From positions 486,001-550,000 of the forward strand of contig NZ_AP024480.1 in NCBI RefSeq assembly GCF_017347585.1: a stretch of 64,000 nucleotides of DNA, written 5' to 3'. The stretch is from Caldicellulosiruptor diazotrophicus (GTDB lineage Bacteria > Bacillota > Thermoanaerobacteria > Caldicellulosiruptorales > Caldicellulosiruptoraceae). The notes under the pieces were generated by a model. That model had not been told where the DNA came from, searched no databases, and saw only the letters and a program-made list of their open reading frames with translations. How positions within the stretch are numbered: the first letter of the stretch is position 1; the number at the start of each line of letters is the position of its first letter. Of the stretch, positions 46,833 through 47,608 are shown one piece after another. The translations under genes and the position numbers were made by a program.

Positions 46833-46887
46833 TTTGCTTAAAAGCAAAAAGTAACTTTTCAACAACCAAAGAAACTTGGGAAATAAC

Positions 46888-46978
46888 ATATCCACAGAGT
46901 TATCCACATTATCCACAACTCATTTTTAAACAGAACGAATATTTGCTTATTGTGAATTGTGGATAATTCTGTGGAAAA
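46888..46978. promoter_or_regulatory. Cluster of five DnaA boxes
   Basis: Three 9-mers point right: ATATCCACA (46888-46896), TTATCCACA (46900-46908) and TTATCCACA (46909-46917). Two point left: TGTGGATAA (46958-46966) and TGTGGAAAA (46970-46978). Three of the five match the DnaA-box consensus exactly and the others differ by one base. The two groups face each other across about 40 AT-rich bases. The cluster lies between a terminator and the hpf gene. Confidence 0.75.
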
Positions 46979-47006
46979 AATTTTTGTGTAAATAAGTCGA
47001 AATTGG

Positions 47007-47015
47007 TGGTATATA
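47007..47015 (+). promoter_or_regulatory. Possible extended -10 element of hpf
   Basis: TGGTATATA (47007-47015) fits an extended -10, overlapping another candidate TATAAT (47016-47021). No good -35 is seen. It is 29 bases after the last DnaA box, so DnaA could affect initiation. Confidence 0.4.
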
Positions 47016-47059
47016 TATAATATCAAAACAAAACCTTCTACATAGAAAGGATGGTCAAT

Positions 47060-47608
47060 ATGATGAACTTTATTATCAGTGGTAAAAACATCGAAGTAAC
47101 TGATGCCCTAAAAGAGAGGATTGAAAAAAAACTTTCAAAACTTGAAAGGTATATAAAGCTTAACACAGATGTTCATGTAACTTTGAGTGTTGAAAAAATT
47201 TCACACATAATTGAAGTAACAATACCATTCCATGGAATGATTTTGAGAGCTGAAGAGAGAAGCAACGATATGTACAGTGCCATAGATTTGGTTGTTGATA
47301 CCTTGGAAAGACAAATTAGAAAGTTCAAGACAAAAATAGCTAAAAGGGCGAAAGACGCAGAGTCTTTGCGATATATAACGTTTGAATTAGAAGAGCCAGA
47401 AAAAGAGGTTCAAGAAGAAAATAGTGAGTTTAGAATTGCTAAAACAAAGAAGTTCCCTATAAAGCCAATGAGTGTTGAAGAGGCAATTTTGCAGATGAAT
47501 TTGCTTGGTCACAGCTTCTTTGTATTCTTAAATCAGGACACAGATAAAGTTAATGTAGTGTATAAAAGAAACGACGGTGCGTATGGTTTAATTGAACCTG
47601 AGTATTAA
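47060..47608 (+). CDS. hpf: Ribosome hibernation promoting factor, long form (HPF)
   Basis: 182 residues from ATG 47060, with AAAGGATGG upstream; ATG 47051 lies inside that site. The N-terminal domain (about 1-100, FIISGKNIEVTDALKERIEKKL) binds the decoding centre. The C-terminal dimerisation domain (about 125-180) carries KKFPIKPMSVEEAILQMNLLGHSFFVF. Long HPF joins two 70S ribosomes into 100S in stationary phase. It is followed by a terminator and secA, a common neighbour. Confidence 0.96.
   Translation: MMNFIISGKNIEVTDALKERIEKKLSKLERYIKLNTDVHVTLSVEKISHIIEVTIPFHGMILRAEERSNDMYSAIDLVVDTLERQIRKFKTKIAKRAKDAESLRYITFELEEPEKEVQEENSEFRIAKTKKFPIKPMSVEEAILQMNLLGHSFFVFLNQDTDKVNVVYKRNDGAYGLIEPEY

Follow-up and report, generated by a model that had tools for sequence, protein, structure and literature searches.

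A dense group of DnaA boxes upstream of hpf, the gene for the ribosome hibernation-promoting factor, and far from dnaA raises the question of whether DnaA would act there on the gene itself or would be held there in the service of replication. In the Bacillota, clusters of DnaA boxes outside oriC have been studied mainly in Bacillus subtilis, and their role is debated. A small DNA element that can be deleted makes the choice between titration and remodelling of DnaA directly testable in this phylum. Its presence at hpf also suggests that the control of replication may be tied to ribosome hibernation, an idea open to experiment. The array described here lies in a window of 64,000 nucleotides (the whole stretch of DNA analysed, C1:486001-550000) from a genome of 2.6 Mb in three contigs, probably Caldicellulosiruptor-like to judge by its genes; positions are those of the window unless a contig is named.

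The box cluster and the hpf gene

The original prediction of five boxes was confirmed at every coordinate and on each strand, three of them being perfect and two carrying one mismatch. Box 1 (ATATCCACA, 46888..46896, plus strand, one mismatch) is followed 12 bp on by box 2 (TTATCCACA, 46900..46908, plus strand, perfect), which is abutted by box 3 (again TTATCCACA, 46909..46917, plus strand, perfect). Facing these are box 4 (TTATCCACA, 46958..46966, minus strand, perfect) and box 5 (TTTTCCACA, 46970..46978, minus strand, one mismatch). The inventory had nevertheless missed a sixth, weaker rightward box, box 0 (TTTTCAACA, 46856..46864, plus strand, two mismatches), situated 32 bp ahead of box 1. 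The core of the array consists of the four rightward boxes 0-1-2-3, at a spacing of about 32-12-9 bp.

Five boxes with at most one mismatch within 91 bp exceed the maximum of two reached in 200 dinucleotide-preserving shuffles of the window. Perfect TTATCCACA boxes number 41 in the whole genome, against 42 for the reversed control pattern, and the unusual feature is therefore their clustering and not their total. Groups of at least three perfect boxes are found on both flanks of dnaA and upstream of hpf, with no others in the genome, and the hpf-upstream group is the tightest (three in 67 bp). The proposal that it might be the densest cluster outside oriC was thus borne out in a genome-wide ranking that rests on perfect boxes, where it is the sole group of three or more. 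The region is, then, a DnaA-box cluster outside oriC at which DnaA binding is predicted, and the DnaA encoded by this genome is a canonical family member (TIGR00362; DHTTV motif).

On the plus strand at 47051..47608 lies hpf (NCBIfam TIGR00741, E 2.7e-28, above the cut-off), its annotated start 72 bp beyond the end of box 5. An AAAGGA motif immediately before 47051, together with the start in G012, a genome of the sister genus, makes an ATG at 47060 or 47063 the probable real start. A putative hpf promoter region on the plus strand, TTTTGTGTAA ... GGTATATATATAATATC (46982..47025), begins right after box 5. A scan for the sigma-70 consensus gave no match on the plus strand of 46982-47025; the stretch (GTGTAA ... 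TGGTAT, with GGGTAT in G012) bears a faint resemblance to promoters of the sigma-B type, and hpf of B. subtilis is stress-controlled.

Conservation and recurrence of the array

Comparison of hpf upstream regions among relatives, which the original prediction had put forward as a check, found the boxes conserved. Each of the 12 genomes in the genus has the array upstream of hpf, at -163 to -73, with unchanged spacing. Box 0 is kept in 12/12, box 1 in 12/12 (as ATATCCACA or CTATCCACA) and box 5 in 12/12 (as TTTTCCACA or TTATCCACA), and box 2 is perfect in 11 of the 12; box 4 is less conserved, appearing as TTATCCACA, CTATCCACA or TTATTCACA, or being lost where box 5 is perfect. Mean identity within the genus is 0.95 in the box columns versus 0.875. 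When a box mask was slid along the genus alignment, the true position ranked 7th of 94 (with the mask's box 0 one base off), a rank no higher because the promoter-like region is conserved too; the within-genus alignment is for this reason weak evidence, and the register kept across the phylum strong evidence.

The single genome available for the sister genus, G012, has the ribosome-binding and promoter-like region of hpf, including GGTATATATATAATA of the promoter-like stretch, without boxes there. It carries two copies of the element elsewhere (L109 and L118, at G012:C13:8617 and 10896), 2.3 kb apart, which share a 78 bp block that is 92% identical and includes the weak box. Within this block is the CTTTGGGAAATAA spacer, which is also present at hpf in the window's genus. 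The element is thus separable from hpf, and seems to have been moved or copied into a gene cluster of G012. Each copy lies ahead of a gene on the plus strand, and the proteins encoded in this cluster resemble glycoside hydrolases.

A search of 398 genomes of the phylum with the 12-9 triple, allowing up to two mismatches and using the reversed pattern as control, found the triple in 189 genomes; the control gave zero matches. The register of boxes 2 and 3 is retained across the phylum. From the copies listed, 110 were taken with their neighbourhoods and the flanking genes were identified by tblastn; families are unevenly sampled among the listed matches, and related genomes among them are not independent. 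Of the 110 copies examined, 47 lie on the upstream side of hpf (41 with hpf downstream and co-oriented, six with comFC or a transporter on the hpf side), an association that is not due to chance. Another 45 are of a second type, at the 3' end of tsaD (gcp): in 40 of them tsaD is transcribed in the direction of the array, and the other five stand beside ABC-F or lgt, the usual neighbours of tsaD. The remainder comprise one copy at dnaA and 17 elsewhere. By hand tally, the hpf and tsaD classes each span about 20 families, with about 19 genomes holding both. That the register stays fixed at both gene positions in many Clostridia and Bacilli points to strong selection.

The hpf copies show a common profile, with a box at -30 to -32 followed by boxes at 0, 12 and 21. 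The first of these recurs in other families and is present in 22 of 46 hpf-side arrays, where about 0.5 boxes would be expected over the whole stretch from -60 to -20. Facing boxes downstream of hpf-side arrays, as in the window, are enriched tenfold (13 observed versus 1.3 expected). The distance to hpf is 155-930 bp across the phylum, or 2.6-3.4 kb with amino-acid-transporter genes in between. In genus g5, of another family in the same class, a triple of the form TTATTCACA-3-TTATCCACA-TTATCCACA lies 0.13-2.8 kb upstream of hpf, in most genomes with an amino-acid ABC transporter between the two. In another collection, seven of 75 hpf loci have a cluster of at least three boxes, all seven at -130 to -385 of hpf, and the flanks of those 75 loci hold no such cluster elsewhere; one of the seven, L006, is probably not independent of G019, which has the same layout. 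Near hpf in the genomes of genus g4 and in G031 there is no three-box cluster at one mismatch or fewer, and several g4 genomes carry an array somewhere at two mismatches.

Wherever hpf is within reach of an hpf-side copy, the array is directed towards that gene and is placed where an upstream promoter could be, and the tsaD-type copies point against tsaD transcription. Eight of 44 tsaD-type copies sit between the ends of converging genes, a place in which a promoter would not be expected, and these count in favour of replication control. The array lies 0.07-0.28 of the chromosome away from oriC in most of the complete genomes checked, and 0.39 and 0.50 away in two, the latter belonging to the same genus as the window; a test across complete genomes therefore gave no constant distance from oriC.

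Proposed replication control and the alternatives

We regard replication control, by means of DnaA held away from oriC, as the probable main role of the cluster. We propose that DnaA would assemble cooperatively on boxes 0-1-2-3, which are arranged head to tail, and form a short directional oligomer there; the gcp site of B. subtilis suggests, by analogy, that the ATP form would be preferred. The facing boxes 4 and 5 would add further DnaA sites. By keeping DnaA off oriC, the cluster could prevent premature initiation, and it would do so from a position that is ancient, as is its counterpart: the two are the upstream side of hpf and the 3' end of tsaD. This reading is favoured because the array is found equally at tsaD, sometimes between converging genes, because its distance from hpf varies, and because G012 shows that the two can be separated. 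A DnaA sink, one of the readings offered in the original prediction, fits best among them. Several observations count against replication control: the hpf-side copies point to hpf and are placed compatibly with a promoter, the distance to oriC is not fixed, and about half of the phylum genomes are without an array at up to two mismatches. Furthermore, one review (of PMC5295017 and PMC13220808) considers the B. subtilis clusters to be without significant weight in the control of initiation.

The chief competitor is the view that DnaA mainly regulates transcription from this site, either of hpf or of an amino-acid-transporter-hpf operon, so that hibernation would follow replication status or DnaA-ATP. 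We judge this rather unlikely as the principal role. It would explain why, in the window's genus, the last box ends so close to the annotated start and abuts a conserved promoter-like region, and why hpf-side arrays are upstream of hpf and co-directional with it; DnaA is, moreover, a known transcription factor, for example at sda in B. subtilis (PMC4447404). The promoter-type placement is fixed and proximal within the genus, but across the phylum the gap between array and hpf ranges between 155 bp and 3.35 kb, with transporter genes in it. The array occurs about as often beside tsaD, where it runs opposite to the transcription of that gene and is flanked in some genomes by converging genes, and G012 retains the promoter-like region of hpf without the array. 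The B. subtilis binding study (PMC4447404) makes no mention of hpf (yvyD) in its text, which also sets the present locus apart from the B. subtilis clusters. The original prediction is partly supported: the association of the cluster with hpf is non-random, but regulation of hpf as its purpose is less supported. DnaA may possibly control hpf locally. Such an effect and replication control are not exclusive, and DnaA bound here could do both.

A more elaborate proposal treats the array as the equivalent of datA or DARS, with a fixed oligomer geometry that alters the nucleotide state of DnaA instead of merely holding the protein; we think this improbable. In its favour, the strict register of about 32-12-9, kept over roughly 20 families each at hpf and at tsaD, exceeds what simple titration would need, and most hpf-side copies in complete genomes lie origin-proximal. 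On the other hand, reviews (PMC5295017, PMC13220808) report no known regulator of DnaA-ATP/ADP in B. subtilis, nor datA- or DARS-like control, and cooperative high-affinity binding could by itself yield a fixed register. Its broadest form, in which the array at hpf and tsaD would be a phylum-wide DnaA-remodelling element of the Bacillota, a counterpart of datA and DARS whose hpf copy also links DnaA state to ribosome hibernation, is doubtful to a similar degree. Far less credible than either is a second or cryptic replication origin, even though the boxes are dense, adjoin AT-rich DNA and resemble origin arrays. As originally predicted, dnaA is absent from the window, which starts at C1:486001; the gene lies at C1:1-1365, at the start of the contig, and is followed by dnaN. 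The pair, with box clusters of its own on both sides of dnaA, sits 533 kb away, GC skew keeps its positive sign from end to end of the window and does not switch at 46.9 kb, and just one of the 110 arrays is located at dnaA. Neither an adjoining dnaA/dnaN nor a GC-skew switch, the marks of oriC, is found at the hpf-upstream cluster, and the early judgement that oriC was unlikely could be upheld; an origin was rejected on the location of dnaA-dnaN, the GC skew and the box clusters at dnaA.

It is just as hard to believe that the cluster is a chance accumulation of AT-rich words or a transcribed RNA hairpin formed by boxes 3 and 4. The genome is indeed AT-rich, and these two boxes constitute an inverted repeat that can pair (TTATCCACAA / TTGTGGATAA), but Rfam returned only sub-threshold, implausible matches, and chance was rejected because shuffles reach at most two boxes per 91 bp and the register is kept phylum-wide with zero control matches. 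An RNA element, or a promoter for raiA-motif RNA, was also rejected, since a scan of 20 loci turned up raiA RNA in only one, and the region in the window had none.

A titration-like role for such clusters has a precedent. The gcp-ydiF locus of B. subtilis is a known strong DnaA site (PMC4447404), and deletion of six non-oriC clusters in that species leads to early initiation (Okumura et al. 2012, as recounted in PMC5295017 and PMC13220808). Like the gcp (tsaD)-ydiF cluster, the array in the window comprises multiple intergenic DnaA boxes far from oriC, and like the six clusters it has its boxes away from oriC. The tsaD-side copies carry the same 12-9 triple as the hpf-side copies and match gcp-ydiF in position; in some genomes they lie, as gcp-ydiF does, between converging tsaD and ABC-F genes. 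The window cluster differs in being at hpf and not tsaD, and in that DnaA binding to it is predicted. The hpf-upstream cluster is most likely of the same replication-controlling type, at a second ancient position. It shares with datA, DARS1 and DARS2 of Escherichia coli the character of a non-coding DnaA-box locus outside oriC; datA and DARS act with IHF/Fis and change the nucleotide state of DnaA. The DnaA-activated sda promoter of B. subtilis is a further parallel, as it too has DnaA boxes ahead of a gene, but at hpf the distance from array to gene varies and regulation is putative. A literature search, with most subscription papers outside its reach, found no paper describing a DnaA-box cluster at hpf, which is weak evidence of novelty.

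Neighbouring genes

The array is preceded by rnr, dnaX and a DUF362-like gene and followed by hpf, secA and prfB, every one of them on the plus strand; the assignments of rnr and of the DUF362-like gene are presumptive. Proximity to dnaX had been suspected to be fortuitous, and this fits, since among the loci checked dnaX stands beside the array in the window's own genus only. At loci L194-L201, L213, L219, L220, L119 and L134, co-directional amino-acid ABC transporter genes lie between the array and hpf, which suggests that several families have a transporter-hpf operon. At one of these loci a raiA-motif RNA (Rfam RF03072; L199:5152-5391, minus strand) shares the interval with the DnaA array upstream of the transporter-hpf genes. 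In family f7, a variant triple (TTATCCACA-3-TTATCCACA-CTATGCACA) recurs at L230, L233 and L234 between argininosuccinate-lyase-like and nicotinate-phosphoribosyltransferase-like genes, an intergenic site that is possibly a third recurrent position of the array. Within the window, the prfB frame (window:50458-51468) begins to match its family model at about position 28 and not before, which is what the usual programmed frameshift of RF2 would produce if it supplies the start.
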